This document shows, piece by piece, positions 384 to 5,934 of a stretch of 64,000 nt of DNA (position 1 is the first letter of the stretch; each line of letters begins with the position of its first letter). Source of the stretch: Polaromonas sp. 39-63-25 (GTDB lineage Bacteria > Pseudomonadota > Gammaproteobacteria > Burkholderiales > Burkholderiaceae_C); NCBI RefSeq assembly GCF_002278925.1, contig NZ_NCJH01000002.1, positions 1 to 64,000 of the forward strand, in the 5' to 3' direction. The position numbers were made by a program, and so were the translations under genes. A model generated the notes under the pieces. That model had not been told where the DNA came from, made no database searches, and saw only the letters and a list, made by a program, of their open reading frames with translations.

Positions 384-1682
384 CTACAGAGCGCAGGACC
401 GAAACCCGCAAAAGATGTCGTCCCGCTCGGGCCGGTAGAAGTTGCGGTACTTCGGAGACTTCATACGGGCGCGGGTCGCGAAAGAACCGCCGCGCAACAC
501 CTTGTGCGTGCCGAACCAGGGCTGCGAATAATCGGCATACGGGTGCGGCTCGAAACCCGGATAGGGCCGGAAGGTGCTGCCCGTCCACTCCCACACATCG
601 CCCCAGCGAAAACCTCGCCGCGCGGCCGTGTGCGCCGCCACCTCCCACTCGACCTCGGCCGGCAGGCGGCGCCCGGCCCAACGGCACCAGGCGTCGGCTT
701 CCCACCAGCTCATGTGCATGGCCGGCTGGTTGCCCAGCATGCGCATCGGCTTGCCAAAGCGGGTCTGCATCACCGCGCCGCTGGCCACACCGATCTGCTC
801 GACATAACGCGGGCCGCGCCGTCCTTCACTGCTCGCCGTGGCCTGCAGCCAGTCCCAGCCTTCGCTCTGCCAGAACTCGGGCTGGTCGTAGCCGCCGTCA
901 TCGACAAACTCCACAAACTGCGCCCAGCTCACCGGCTGGGCGTCGATCTCGAACTCGGGAACGTTGACCTCGTGCTGGGCCAGCTCGTTGTCGAACACGA
1001 ATCCCGGCGCTGCGGCGCTGCCGAGCATCCAGACGGTGGCCGGCACCAACAGCGGCTCGCGCAGGGCCATGGTGGGCGGCGTGAAGGCTTGCAGCAGCGC
1101 CTTGTCGAGGGTCAGGCCCAAAGTCTGCGCCGTGTAGCTCAGGGCTTCGGCATGCATGTCCTCGTGGAACAGGCAGAGGCGGAAAAAATAGAGCGCGTCG
1201 TCGTCCTCCCCGGTTTTTTCCAGCAGCTCCAGCGTGCTTTCGAGCGTGTCGAGCAAATAGGCACGGCAAGCCGCGACCGGAGGAAGATCCAGCGTCCAGC
1301 GCTGGTGATGCGGCACGTTGCCCGAGTCCCACCAGCGGTCGGCACCCGGTTCGATGGAGGCCAGCCGCGCATGCGCGGGCTCGCAGCGGGCTCCCCGGGC
1401 GCGCTGCATGTTGCGCCCGATCCACCACTCCTGGAACCAGCCAACATGCCCGAGCTCCCAGAGCGGCGGATTGAGGACCGTCAACTCAGGAACCACAAAG
1501 TTGACGGCCTCCAGCGCCTGCTGGTACTGGCCGAACAGGTGCAAGGTATGGTTGCGCGCATCCATCAGGGCCAGCGACAGCGCATCCCGTCCGGCGCTGC
1601 GTATCAGGGGCGAATCAATCAGGCCGGCCTCGTGGGCAGCAGAGGAATGGGGTGATGAAGGGGGTAGCGGATCTGAAGCCAA
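384..1682 (-). CDS. senA: Selenoneine synthase SenA-type (EgtB-like nonheme iron enzyme)
   Basis: SenA joins a selenosugar to hercynine with oxygen, forming the C-Se bond of the selenoneine precursor. The 432-residue reading has an N-terminal DinB-like helical domain with the iron ligands expected of EgtB enzymes: His79 (LGHVGWFQ) and the HX3HXE motif (HEDMHAE, His173, His177). A C-terminal formylglycine-enzyme-like domain follows, ending FCGFRSCAL. EgtB itself would look similar; the SenA call rests on senB and selD close by. The start is uncertain. TTG at 1682 has AGGA about 8 bases upstream and gives a family-typical length, while ATG at 1565 would trim the conserved RDALSLAL helix. Hercynine synthesis (EgtD) is not in the window. 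The stop codon lies at the edge of a GCTAT-type repeat. Confidence 0.85.
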   Translation of the reverse strand: MASDPLPPSSPHSSAAHEAGLIDSPLIRSAGRDALSLALMDARNHTLHLFGQYQQALEAVNFVVPELTVLNPPLWELGHVGWFQEWWIGRNMQRARGARCEPAHARLASIEPGADRWWDSGNVPHHQRWTLDLPPVAACRAYLLDTLESTLELLEKTGEDDDALYFFRLCLFHEDMHAEALSYTAQTLGLTLDKALLQAFTPPTMALREPLLVPATVWMLGSAAAPGFVFDNELAQHEVNVPEFEIDAQPVSWAQFVEFVDDGGYDQPEFWQSEGWDWLQATASSEGRRGPRYVEQIGVASGAVMQTRFGKPMRMLGNQPAMHMSWWEADAWCRWAGRRLPAEVEWEVAAHTAARRGFRWGDVWEWTGSTFRPYPGFEPHPYADYSQPWFGTHKVLRGGSFATRARMKSPKYRNFYRPERDDIFCGFRSCAL

Positions 1683-1743
1683 AACCGTCGTCCTGGTAAG
1701 CCGGCTGCAGCATGCCAACCCTGGCAAGTGGCGCACCGCGCAT
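1663..1743 (+). pseudogene. Remnant of a second senB 5' end
   Basis: Read in frame from 1663, this gives GSGSEAKTVVLVSRLQ-HANPGKW-RTA. The functional SenB start reads GSVSKTKTVVLVSPALADANNGNWHTA. I count 17 identical residues over about 27 aligned positions with one gap, and the DNA is also clearly alike (both begin gggtagcg and share aaaaccgt and atgccaac). No in-frame ATG is nearby and similarity stops after about 80 bases. It overlaps the 5' end of senA on the other strand. The likely origin is a duplication or rearrangement when the FimL-like gene came between senA and senB. Confidence 0.7.
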
Positions 1744-1997
1744 GGGGGAACCCAGAATAGCAGACGGGCGTCTGCCCGGGGCGGCGTCGATCTGCCCGTG
1801 TCGCCCGTAAAAAACCCCGACGGGAGAGGGGCCGGAGTCAACCAGTCAACCGGCTCATGCGACCGGTTGTCACTCCGCCCTCCCCCGACCATCGCCAGAT
1901 CGGCTCGGCCGGGATAGACTCCGCTAGTTTTTCCAGCTCGCTGGTCGCCTCTTTGGGTTTCGAGCGTGAGCACCCTTCATCAACCGGGCCGCCATTT

Positions 1998-3782
1998 ATG
2001 CCATCCACCGAGCTGAATGCCTCTTCCGAAGATCTCGACCTGAGCATCATGGACATGAGTCCCCTGGCCTGGGTGCTCGATGAACTTGGCAAATCACTGG
2101 ACAGTTCGAGCAAGGCGCTGAAACGTTTTGTGCGGGATGCCGAGGTGGCGCAGGGCGCCGAGCTTGCCGCGCTCGATGCGAGCCAGTTGCGCCTCGCCCG
2201 CCAGCAGCTGCACCAGGCGGTCGGTGCCCTGGAGATGGTCGGCATGAGTGCGCCGGCACTGGTGCTGCGCGCGATGGAGGCCGCGGTGCAGAAGTTTGTC
2301 CAGACGCCCGGTCAATGCACCCCGGAGGCCGCCAACAAGGTCGAACTGGCCGGTTTCGCCCTGACCGCTTACCTCGAAGATGTGCTTGCGGGCAAACCAG
2401 CCTCGGCCGTGTCGCTGTTTCCCCAGTACCGTGATGTCCAGGGCCTGGTCGGCGCGGACCGCATCCATCCGGCCGACCTCTGGGCATTCGAGTGGCGCTG
2501 GATTGAGCCGGAGCTGGCGTCCGGCGCCGATCCCCTGCCCTACGGCGACGCCAGCCGGGAGCTGCTGGACCGGTGGACCCTGAAACTCGTGCGGAACAGC
2601 CATCCCGAGGCGGCGCAACAGCTCTGCGACATGTGCCTGGGTTTCGCGCAGGCGGAAACAGACAGTGAACCCCGGGCCTTCTGGAAACTGGCTGCCGGCT
2701 TTTTTGAAGCCCTGGCCAAGGGCCTGCTGAAAGTCGATGTGTATGCCAAAAGAGCCATTTTGCGCATCCTGCTGCAGTATGCGGCCCTGGCAAAGGGCAA
2801 TGCCCATGCGTCGGACAGGCTCGCGCAGGATTTGCTGTTTCTCTGTACCCAGGCGGTGCCCAGAAGCGCCACGGATGCGCCGGTGCTGTCGGCGGTGCGT
2901 GCCAGTTATGGCCTGGACCGCTTCGAGCCCATCGACTACGAGGCCATCCAGTTCGGTCGCTTTGCCCCGGCGCTGATCGCGCAGGCCCGCAAGCGGATCA
3001 GTTCGGCCAAGGACATCTGGTCATGGGTGACCTCGGGCGACCTCACCCGGTTCAAGACCATGAACGACCAGTTCAGCCTGGTGACGGACTCGCTGGTCAA
3101 GCTGCACCCGCCCAGCGAGCCGCTGGCGCGCGTGCTGGCACGGGTGATCGACACGACGGCACGCTCAGGCCAGGTGCCCGGCCCCGAACTGGCGCTGGAA
3201 GTGGCGACGGCCGTGTTGTACCTCGAAGCCGCTTTTGACGACCTCGACCCCAGCGACCCCCAGCTCACGGCCCGCACGGCCCGGCTCGCCGAACGGCTGG
3301 ACGCGGCCCAGGCCGGCGGGCCGTCGCAGCCCCTGGAGCCCTGGATGGAAGAGCTTTACCGGCGTGTCAGCGACAAACAGACCATGGCCAGCCTGGTGGG
3401 AGAACTGCGGGTCACGCTAGGCGGTCTGGAAAAATCGCTGGACAACTTTTCCCGCGCACCCCAGGACAAGACGGTGTTGAGTGCGGTGCCCAGGGAACTG
3501 GCACAGATGCGCGGTGTGTTGTCCCTGCTGGGGCTGGACCAGGCCGCGCTGGCGGTGGTGCACATGCGCGAACTCGTCGACCACATGCTGCAGGCCGATA
3601 CTGACGAACAGCAGCTTCGCGCGGCCGGAACGTTTGACTGCCTCGGCAACAACCTCGGCGCCCTGAGCTTCCTGATCGACATGCTCAACTACCAGCCGGC
3701 CCTGGCCAAAAAAGTGTTTGTCTATGACGCGATCAAGGGCGAGCTCAAGGCCGACAGGGATGCCGAAGGCGGGCCGGCCTGA
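1998..3782 (+). CDS. FimL-like protein (stand-alone ChpA/PilL N-terminal region)
   Basis: The 594-residue protein resembles the first ~600 residues of the type IV pilus hybrid kinase ChpA/PilL of Burkholderiales (SPLAWVLDELGKSLDSSSKALKRFVRD; ALDASQLRLARQQLHQAVGALEMVG; LFPQYRDVQGLVGADRIHPADLWAFEWRW). It ends before any Hpt, CheA kinase or receiver domain. LHQAVGALEMVG looks like a degenerate Hpt helix without the phosphoryl-His signature HxxKG. P. aeruginosa FimL has this architecture and regulates twitching motility and cAMP. FimL-like scaffold is therefore the best guess; a truncated chpA duplicate is the alternative. ATG 1998 is chosen over the upstream start because conserved sequence begins soon after it. 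No pilus gene is nearby. Confidence 0.65.
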   Translation: MPSTELNASSEDLDLSIMDMSPLAWVLDELGKSLDSSSKALKRFVRDAEVAQGAELAALDASQLRLARQQLHQAVGALEMVGMSAPALVLRAMEAAVQKFVQTPGQCTPEAANKVELAGFALTAYLEDVLAGKPASAVSLFPQYRDVQGLVGADRIHPADLWAFEWRWIEPELASGADPLPYGDASRELLDRWTLKLVRNSHPEAAQQLCDMCLGFAQAETDSEPRAFWKLAAGFFEALAKGLLKVDVYAKRAILRILLQYAALAKGNAHASDRLAQDLLFLCTQAVPRSATDAPVLSAVRASYGLDRFEPIDYEAIQFGRFAPALIAQARKRISSAKDIWSWVTSGDLTRFKTMNDQFSLVTDSLVKLHPPSEPLARVLARVIDTTARSGQVPGPELALEVATAVLYLEAAFDDLDPSDPQLTARTARLAERLDAAQAGGPSQPLEPWMEELYRRVSDKQTMASLVGELRVTLGGLEKSLDNFSRAPQDKTVLSAVPRELAQMRGVLSLLGLDQAALAVVHMRELVDHMLQADTDEQQLRAAGTFDCLGNNLGALSFLIDMLNYQPALAKKVFVYDAIKGELKADRDAEGGPA

Positions 3783-3835
3783 GGCCTGTTAACCTTGTTG
3801 CGGGGAGCTCTCCGGCTCGCGAAACAAGGTGGTTC

Positions 3836-4864
3836 ATGGGTAGCGTGTCCAAAACAAAAACCGTGGTGCTGGTCAGTCCGGCCCTGGCCGATGCCAACAA
3901 TGGCAACTGGCACACAGCCAGGCGCTGGGCGCAATGCCTGGCCGGCCACTGTGCCACCACGCTGGGGGCGCAGTGGCCTGAATCTCCCCATCCGGCCACG
4001 TCCCCGGCCGATGCCCTGATCGCGCTGCATGCGCGCCGCTCGGCGCCCTCCATCGAAGCCTGGGCGCGGCAGTGCCCCGGCAAACCGCTGATCCTCGTTT
4101 TGACGGGCACCGACCTGTACCGCGACATCCTTGCGGACGCCAGTGCGCAGCAATCGCTGGCGCTGGCCACCCACCTGGTGGTGCTGCAGGAGGCCGGCCT
4201 GCAGGCGCTGCCCGCCACCCTGCGCCACAAGGCCCGCGTGATTTACCAGTCGGCCCGCGCCTTGAAGCCTGCCGTCAAACCCGTGCGGCACTTTCGCGCC
4301 CTGATGGTTGGCCACCTGCGGGAAGAAAAAGACCCGCTGACCTGGATGCGGGCGGCAGCACGGCTGGCCCCGGGAAGCTCACGCCCGCCGGTGCGCCTGC
4401 TGTTCGACCACATCGGGGACGCACTCACACCGGATCTCGCGCTGGCCGTGCGGACAGCGCAGGCCAGCGTCCCCGGCTACCGCTGGCTGGGCGGCCTGCC
4501 CCAGGCCCAGACCCGCCAGCACATCAAGCGCGCCCATGTGCTGGTCAACAGCTCACGCATGGAAGGCGGCGCCCAGGTCATTTTGCAGGCCGTCCAGTCC
4601 GGCACACCGGTGCTGGCCTCGCGGATCAGCGGCAACATCGGCATGCTGGGCGCCGCTTATGCGGGTTACTTTCCCGTGGGTGACGACGCTGCGCTGGCGG
4701 CGCTCCTGCTGCGCTGCGCCACCGATGCAGGTTTTCTGGCCCTGCTCGAAAAACAATGCAGCGAGCGGGCCCACCTGTTCGACCCCGATGCGGAAAAGCG
4801 CCTTGTCTTAAACTTGGTGCTCAGCGCACTGTCTGCCGCACCGCCCAGGAAACCCTCCCCATGA
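3836..4864 (+). CDS. senB: Selenosugar synthase SenB (GT-B glycosyltransferase)
   Basis: SenB forms the first C-Se bond by joining selenophosphate to a UDP-sugar, giving the selenosugar used by SenA. The 342-residue protein starts KTVVLVSPALADANNGNWHTARRWAQCLAG, a start I associate with SenB, and carries LVLTGTDLYRDI near residue 85. The GT-B C-terminal half has HLREEKDPLTWMRAA, then HVLVNSSRMEGGAQVILQA, then GTPVLASRISGNIGMLG. A Shine-Dalgarno-like aaggtgg lies 5 bases before the ATG. The gene overlaps selD by 4 bases (ATGA), so the two are probably translationally coupled. Confidence 0.85.
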   Translation: MGSVSKTKTVVLVSPALADANNGNWHTARRWAQCLAGHCATTLGAQWPESPHPATSPADALIALHARRSAPSIEAWARQCPGKPLILVLTGTDLYRDILADASAQQSLALATHLVVLQEAGLQALPATLRHKARVIYQSARALKPAVKPVRHFRALMVGHLREEKDPLTWMRAAARLAPGSSRPPVRLLFDHIGDALTPDLALAVRTAQASVPGYRWLGGLPQAQTRQHIKRAHVLVNSSRMEGGAQVILQAVQSGTPVLASRISGNIGMLGAAYAGYFPVGDDAALAALLLRCATDAGFLALLEKQCSERAHLFDPDAEKRLVLNLVLSALSAAPPRKPSP

Positions 4865-5934
4865 ACGCACCCGTCCCACTCACACCTGTCGCCCCTCCCC
4901 GCCTGACCAGCCTGTCCCATGGCGGCGGCTGCGGCTGCAAGATCGCCCCGGGCGTGCTCAGTGAAATCCTCAAGAACTCCAGCAACATGCCCGGCCTCAA
5001 CATCCCGCCGCAACTGCTGGTCGGCATCGAAACCGCGGACGATGCCGCGGTCTACCAGCTCAACGACGAGCAGGCGCTGATTGCCACCACCGACTTCTTC
5101 ATGCCCATCGTGGACGATCCCTACGACTTCGGCCGCATCGCCGCGACCAACGCGATCAGCGACGTCTACGCCATGGGCGGCACACCCATCATGGCACTGG
5201 GACTGGTGGGCATGCCGATCAACGTACTGCCGCTGGAAACCATAGGCGCCATCCTGCGCGGCGGCCAGGATGTCTGCCGCGACGCCGGCATTCCGATTGC
5301 CGGCGGCCACACGATTGATTCGGTCGAGCCGATTTACGGCCTGGTGGTGATGGGCCTGGTCCATCCCTCGCGGGTCAAGAAAAATTCGGGCGCCCGCGCC
5401 GGCGATGTGCTGATCCTGGGCAAGCCGCTGGGCGTCGGCATCCTGTCGGCGGCGCTCAAGAAAGAAGCGCTCGACGCCCAGGGGTATGCCCGCATGATTG
5501 CCGTCACCACCCAGCTCAACAAACCAGGCATCGCCCTGGCAGCAATGGAGGGTGTCCATGCCCTGACCGACATCACCGGATTCGGACTGCTTGGCCATGG
5601 GCTGGAGCTGGCGCGCGGCGCGAACCTGAAGATGGAGTTGCAGATGGACAGCATTCCGCTGCTGCCAGACGTGCTGGATCTGGCAGGACGCGGCATGGTC
5701 ACGGGTGCCTCCGGCCGCAACTGGGCCGCTTATGGCCATGAAGTGCAACTGCCGGCGAACCTGGGTGCGGCGCAGCAGGCCCTGCTGTCCGACCCGCAAA
5801 CCAGCGGCGGGCTGCTGGTGTCCTGCGCACCGGAGATCGCCAACGAGGTTCTGGCCTGCTTCCACGGCCAGGGGTTTTCGGACGCCCGCGTCATAGGCCG
5901 CATGCTGGAGGGCAGCGGCGTACAGGTCGTCTGA
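4861..5934 (+). CDS. selD: Selenide, water dikinase (selenophosphate synthetase; SenC role)
   Basis: The enzyme makes selenophosphate from selenide and ATP. The 357-residue protein has the glycine-rich catalytic segment SHGGGCGCK (Cys24, Cys26, Lys27), matching SelD Cys17/Lys20 of E. coli. AIR-synthase-fold motifs follow: TTDFFMPIVDDPYDFGRIAATNAISDVYAMGG, GGHTIDSVEPIYGLV, LTDITGFGLLGHG and LLSDPQTSGGLL. Coupling to senB by ATGA points to selenoneine synthesis. No selA, selB, selC tRNA or selU is in the window, so any extra role in selenocysteine or selenouridine cannot be judged. Cysteine, not selenocysteine, is encoded at the active site. Confidence 0.95.
   Translation: MNAPVPLTPVAPPRLTSLSHGGGCGCKIAPGVLSEILKNSSNMPGLNIPPQLLVGIETADDAAVYQLNDEQALIATTDFFMPIVDDPYDFGRIAATNAISDVYAMGGTPIMALGLVGMPINVLPLETIGAILRGGQDVCRDAGIPIAGGHTIDSVEPIYGLVVMGLVHPSRVKKNSGARAGDVLILGKPLGVGILSAALKKEALDAQGYARMIAVTTQLNKPGIALAAMEGVHALTDITGFGLLGHGLELARGANLKMELQMDSIPLLPDVLDLAGRGMVTGASGRNWAAYGHEVQLPANLGAAQQALLSDPQTSGGLLVSCAPEIANEVLACFHGQGFSDARVIGRMLEGSGVQVV

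Follow-up and report, generated by a model that had tools for sequence, protein, structure and literature searches.

A stand-alone chpA 5'-end copy between senA and senB of Polaromonas lies between two complementary remnants of a probable shared start region

The selenoneine cluster senA-senB-senC has been described in Variovorax paradoxus (PMC10891094). The Polaromonas locus studied here possesses all three genes, with matches to the SenA, SenB and SelD/SenC models, but unlike the V. paradoxus cluster its senA and senB are separated by a chpA-derived gene and by what appears to be a doubled start region. Head-to-head overlaps of divergent genes form a second point of reference: 457 of them, about 1% of the overlaps considered, were counted in one survey, which judged all 75 of those longer than 60 bp to be misannotations arising from wrong starts (PMC2478687). 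The senA-senB overlap predicted below is likewise head to head; it is short, with 17-23 coding bases between predicted starts, and is backed by the later fate of its doubled copies. The inserted gene recalls FimL of Pseudomonas aeruginosa, which is homologous to the N-terminal 563 of the 2477 residues of ChpA (PMC3019171). Searches of an open-access library, which leaves out most subscription papers, found no paper describing a doubled senA-senB start region.

The window, i.e. the entire 64,000-nucleotide stretch of contig NZ_NCJH01000002.1 analysed, carries senA on the minus strand, followed on the plus strand by a FimL-like gene, senB and senC/selD (Table 1). The SenA protein scored above the cut-off of its curated model (520.3 bits versus 420), and SenB matched its own model over the full length (428.6 bits versus a cut-off of 300).

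Table 1. Features of the senA-senB junction and its neighbourhood, in window coordinates
Feature	Position	Strand	Evidence or remark
senA (selenoneine synthase)	384..1682	-	NF041186, E 3.8e-156; probable start TTG at 1682-1680
Putative left copy of the senA-senB overlap	1661..1743	+	Decayed senB 5' end; nhmmer E 6.9e-12 and alignment with the G450 junction
Putative left copy, minus-strand content	1661..1743	-	senA first codons, Shine-Dalgarno sequence and leader
Site of the lost senB start codon	1660..1662	+	GGG here versus TTG in the uninterrupted relative G450
Predicted senA Shine-Dalgarno core AGGA	1691..1694	-	8 nt before TTG; antisense to senB VL codons
CTGCTATTCT, possible extended -10 of a senA promoter	1754..1763	-	Conservation in left copies
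ATAGACT, possible -10 upstream of the FimL-like gene	1914..1920	+	Conservation
FimL-like gene, separate copy of roughly 585 codons from the chpA 5' end	1998..3782	+	
Candidate extended -10 of senB, TGTTAACCT, in the FimL-senB spacer	3787..3795	+	Conservation
senB (Se-glycosyltransferase), putative right overlap copy at 5' end	3836..4864	+	TIGR04348, E 1.2e-128; nhmmer 3837-3938
senC / selD (selenophosphate synthetase)	4861..5934	+	NF002098, E 3.6e-162

The first-pass annotation of this DNA had proposed that a plus-strand frame beside senA is a partial senB duplicate, and its description of that frame proved accurate: 17 residues match the SenB N-terminus, the likeness stops abruptly at 1743, and the former senB start position has no start codon. 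Its claim that the frame overlaps senA codons holds for 1661-1682, the first seven or so codons, while 1683-1743 would instead be senA leader and Shine-Dalgarno (SD) sequence if translation starts at the predicted TTG. By itself the protein comparison is weak, with a score of 68 near the best of 1000 SenB shuffles (62), as would be expected if the fragment were a chance resemblance in GC-rich sequence. That explanation is refuted by the DNA comparisons and by the junctions of relatives, and we give it practically no weight. Positions 1640-1760 aligned with 3815-3935 at a local score of 57, against 33 for the best of 2000 dinucleotide shuffles, and the best local score of the same stretch elsewhere in the window was 28. 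An nhmmer profile built from 28 uninterrupted senA-senB junctions, all from other Polaromonas genomes, recovered in the window both the fragment and the senB start (E 3.2e-20), with all further matches at E >= 1.2 and a best match of E 1 in the reversed window. Over the whole stretch the profile scored senB above the fragment (67.9 versus 41.0 bits). The fragment differs from the profile by two small indels that sum to minus 3 nt, so that its plus frame is still open here. As a SenB gene in its own right it was rejected, having no start at the old site and fewer than 30 codons.

Among 87 genomes of the genus, senA was present in 81 and senB in 62, and 58 matched the FimL-like protein, either as a separate gene or within ChpA, at E <= 1e-30. 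Junctions were examined in 65 of the 81 genomes with senA, the 16 outside this count being G407, G408, G420, G426, G435-G439, G461, G472, G474-G477 and G479. The uninterrupted divergent junction that the first-pass annotation had expected in homologous loci was present in 28 of the 65; a further 11 have the insert together with senB, six have the insert without an adjacent senB (one of these, G418, carries a remote senB on a separate contig), and 20 have neither, 13 of the last group with senC within the stretch examined. The 17 insert loci include G454, which is split over two contigs (the senA end in L118, FimL-senB-senC in L119) and which the start-site and profile comparisons listed as lacking senB. 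They leave aside G412, where the one match to FimL/ChpA is an open frame of 684 aa. The left copy is not readable in G456, which is left out of the readable-copy counts (n=16). The profile found the fragment beside senA in 12 of the 17 insert loci, missing the left copy in five. In none of the 20 loci with senA and neither an adjacent senB nor the insert did it find the fragment (E <= 0.01), so that these loci did not show the same senA 5' sequence without a nearby senB, a finding that would have refuted the duplicate. An SD-backed start is nonetheless still present at about the same place in 10 of these 20. Some loci have unusual arrangements: the order is senA - FimL-like - senC, with senB missing, in G099, G395 and G425 (L102, L103 and L121), and in G456 (L122) the FimL-like gene lies convergently at the 3' rather than the 5' side of senA, with no senC in the 9.5 kb stretch examined. 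In a Rhodoferax locus (L058) senA and senB have the same orientation.

In the uninterrupted loci senA and senB are more than the abutting pair that had been supposed, as the probable senA start and SD lie inside the 5' end of senB. The SD word of senA (plus-strand TCCT) precedes the NNGNW codons of SenB at 26 of the 28 uninterrupted junctions and in none of the 11 right copies (Fisher 4.7e-8, a value that overstates the difference because related genomes are not independent events). A TTG or GTG start of senA backed by this SD is predicted within the senB 5' end in 25 of the 28, TTG serving in some relatives and GTG in others, and at about the same place in 14 of the 17 insert loci; the predicted senA start is thus conserved inside the senB 5' end. 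The exceptions among the 28 are G404, G431 and G432, which have no SD-backed start; the SD word itself is absent from G431 and G432 and present in G404. Outside Polaromonas candidate senA starts in or near senB appear common and SD-backed ones patchy. At TCTGAAGCC, TCCTGGTAAGC and CTGCAG the fragment agrees with the uninterrupted junction of G450, while today's senB start does not. These observations suggest that the ancestral senA and senB probably shared their start regions on opposite strands, with the coding overlap and the use of the senA TTG following from the predicted starts. In G422 (L134) the junction contains a 15-bp tandem repeat, AATATCGTCCTGAAA followed by AATATCGTGCTG, with the senA SD in the first unit and the SenB IVLVS codons, without an SD, in the second. 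This is perhaps a second, smaller separation of the senA-senB overlap.

That the inserted segment brought in the FimL-like gene was part of the first-pass annotation, and the origin of this gene can now be specified further. Its product is 594 aa long and over residues 7-584 shares 72% identity with the beginning of a 2063-codon frame elsewhere in that genome; the DNA similarity to the 2063-codon gene begins about 16 bases before the ATG. We call this longer frame ChpA from its size, from the kind of protein that ends just upstream and from the usual pil-chp gene order. In a tree of 17 stand-alone copies, 26 ChpA sequences of the genus and 12 outgroup sequences, the stand-alone copies form one clade (100/100) inside Polaromonas ChpA. 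By this nesting the FimL-like gene derives from the 5' part of chpA of the genus itself. Like P. aeruginosa FimL it is a stand-alone protein corresponding to the ChpA N-terminus; unlike FimL it nests inside the ChpA of its own genus, which speaks against orthology with fimL, and it probably has a separate and younger origin. Pairwise dN/dS values of 0.07-0.19 (7 pairs) indicate that the gene is under purifying selection. No Pfam or NCBIfam model matched the protein at E <= 0.001, and the open reading frames of the insert comprise the FimL-like frame and frames overlapping it.

The two copies flanking the insert have lost different things. In all 16 readable left copies the senB start is gone: the codon at the G450 start position is GGG (6), TGG (1), TCG (7), TTA (1) or TTT (1), and no ATG stands at the position used by other relatives. 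The senA SD is kept in 14 of the 17, at 6-9 nt from the start. In five of these 14 the distance is other than 8, implying that the senB frame there was free to shift; together with early stops in G200 and G099, this amounts to a visibly broken senB frame in seven of the 16, while the window and its five closest relatives retain an open frame across the fragment. The SD core is lost in G099 and G425, both of which also lack senB, and G456 has no recognisable senA start motif at the left-copy site, an SD-backed candidate occurring elsewhere. Conversely, none of the 11 right copies has the senA SD and all have an open SenB frame. Their SenB stretch remains in frame but uses different codons or residues (GTGCTGGTC, GTTCTGGTC, ATTCTGGTC, GTCATCGTC and ATCATCGTC), and the start-region words of the junction (CATTGG or CATGGG, then AGC) are retained. 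The losses are thus complementary. In duplication-degeneration-complementation two copies lose complementary functions; the doubled unit here differs in being a start region common to two genes and not a gene.

The left fragment might alternatively be neutral debris with no present role, as its lost senB start and frequently disrupted frame would allow; it also shows no sign of a structured leader RNA, a candidate that was rejected on a fold z-score of +1.34 and the lack of any Rfam match at E <= 1 in 1500-4000. Its conservation argues to the contrary. Across six close genomes the fragment, measured over 94 columns as far as the -10-like word, has a mean identity of 95.8%, above that of senA third positions (86.1%) and of the first 90 nt of senB (90.4%), with senA codons 1-140 at 93.2% and the spacer beyond at 58.6%. 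Given this conservation and the retention of SD and start in 14 of the 17 insert loci, we regard decay without function as very improbable. Rather, the fragment is probably the translation-start region of senA itself.

The following history could account for these features. In the ancestor senA and senB would have stood head to head, overlapping by about 17-23 coding bases, with the senA SD written antisense within the senB VL codons. A stretch of about 2 kb carrying the chpA 5' end (about 585 codons and about 16 bases upstream) would then have entered the junction, and about 85 bases of the overlap would have been doubled, leaving one copy on either side of the insert; the part found doubled extends from the senB start region as far as roughly codon 30. 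The left copy would have retained the first codons of senA with the TTG start, SD and leader but lost the senB start codon and, in many lineages, the senB frame. In the right copy the senB frame would have persisted and a separate spacer been gained, while the senA SD was lost. The left fragment would thus still resemble senB because it once was senB. That the overlap was doubled around a chpA insert, that its copies decayed in complementary fashion and that the fragment is now a working senA translation-start region is, in our estimate, very likely as a whole, the physical event itself being reconstructed from its outcome. The earlier proposal of a partial duplicate left behind therefore stands as to the doubling but not as to the role: the fragment would be the original junction, kept as the senA translation-start region.

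A different course of events would lead to the same end state. The whole of senB, or a segment comprising the senA 5' end and senB, might have been duplicated in tandem, with the chpA piece then entering between the two units and a deletion later removing most of the left senB. In 15 of the 17 insert loci the left copy is followed by an AGAATAGCAG-like word, which could equally mark an old deletion edge or an original edge, but a longer left senB occurs in none of the 17, and we consider such a course rather unlikely. It might also be supposed that the insertion destroyed senB, which was later regained by transfer, in which case the insertion event would not have produced the right copy as a duplicate. 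Loci of the kind this would predict do exist, namely the six insert loci without senB beside senA and the 20 further loci with senA and no adjacent senB. However, in the tree of concatenated SenA, SenB and SenC (23 rows) the 11 loci with insert and senB form one clade (89/82, not starred), with G450 as sister and then G427, both uninterrupted, and the right copy keeps the start-region words of the junction. A regained senB is accordingly a poor candidate, to which we attach little credence. The proposed split of a divergent senA-senB pair is itself supported by this single clade with its uninterrupted sister.

Other trees complicate the timing of the doubling around the chpA insert. In the SenA-only tree (44 genus rows and 6 outgroups) the 17 insert loci need three changes and not one, with SenA of five insert loci without senB (G099, G395, G405, G425 and G456) falling in another part of the genus, so that a complete account would need horizontal transfer or an older event as well. 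The FimL-like proteins of these five are sister to the other twelve. AGAATAGCAG stands beside the left copy in three of the five and as a variant in one, G456 having no readable copy. The simplest reading would be that in these five loci the insert was transferred together with the senA 5' end. In the ChpA tree G427 and G451, which lack the insert, fall in conflict among insert-bearing genomes (96/83 and 89/74).

If the doubling has been read correctly, it offers a handle on short divergent overlaps, the reality and constraints of which are hard to test from sequence: as the overlap is doubled here, each copy reveals which bases serve which gene, in the manner of a natural separation experiment. 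It also presents a case in which part of a signalling kinase gene was duplicated and, within a selenium cluster, turned into a separate gene maintained by purifying selection. What is new is a route out of an overlap, not a new system. We tentatively suggest that doubling of a shared start might be a general exit from divergent overlap and a condition for a foreign gene to settle between the two genes, senA-senB having possibly taken it at least twice (the chpA piece and the G422 repeat), though we would not yet favour this generalization.

Several promoter-like words accompany the two copies. CTGCTATTCT is exact in 14 of the 17 left copies, has 2 mismatches in one and is absent from two, and ATAGACT is present in 14 of the 15 left copies whose FimL upstream stretch was inspected, being absent from G425. 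TGTTAACCT, occurring as CTGTTAACCT from position 3786, is found in all 11 right spacers before senB, and neither form was found on the plus strand of the stretches from the 28 uninterrupted loci. A consensus promoter scan of 1600-2010 found no promoter, so it is conservation that points to these -10-like elements. In many head-to-head junctions the senB codons lying about 90-100 bases upstream of senA include ATTGTGACA, which persists in three loci that lack senB (G402, G441 and G449) and is possibly a senA promoter or operator.
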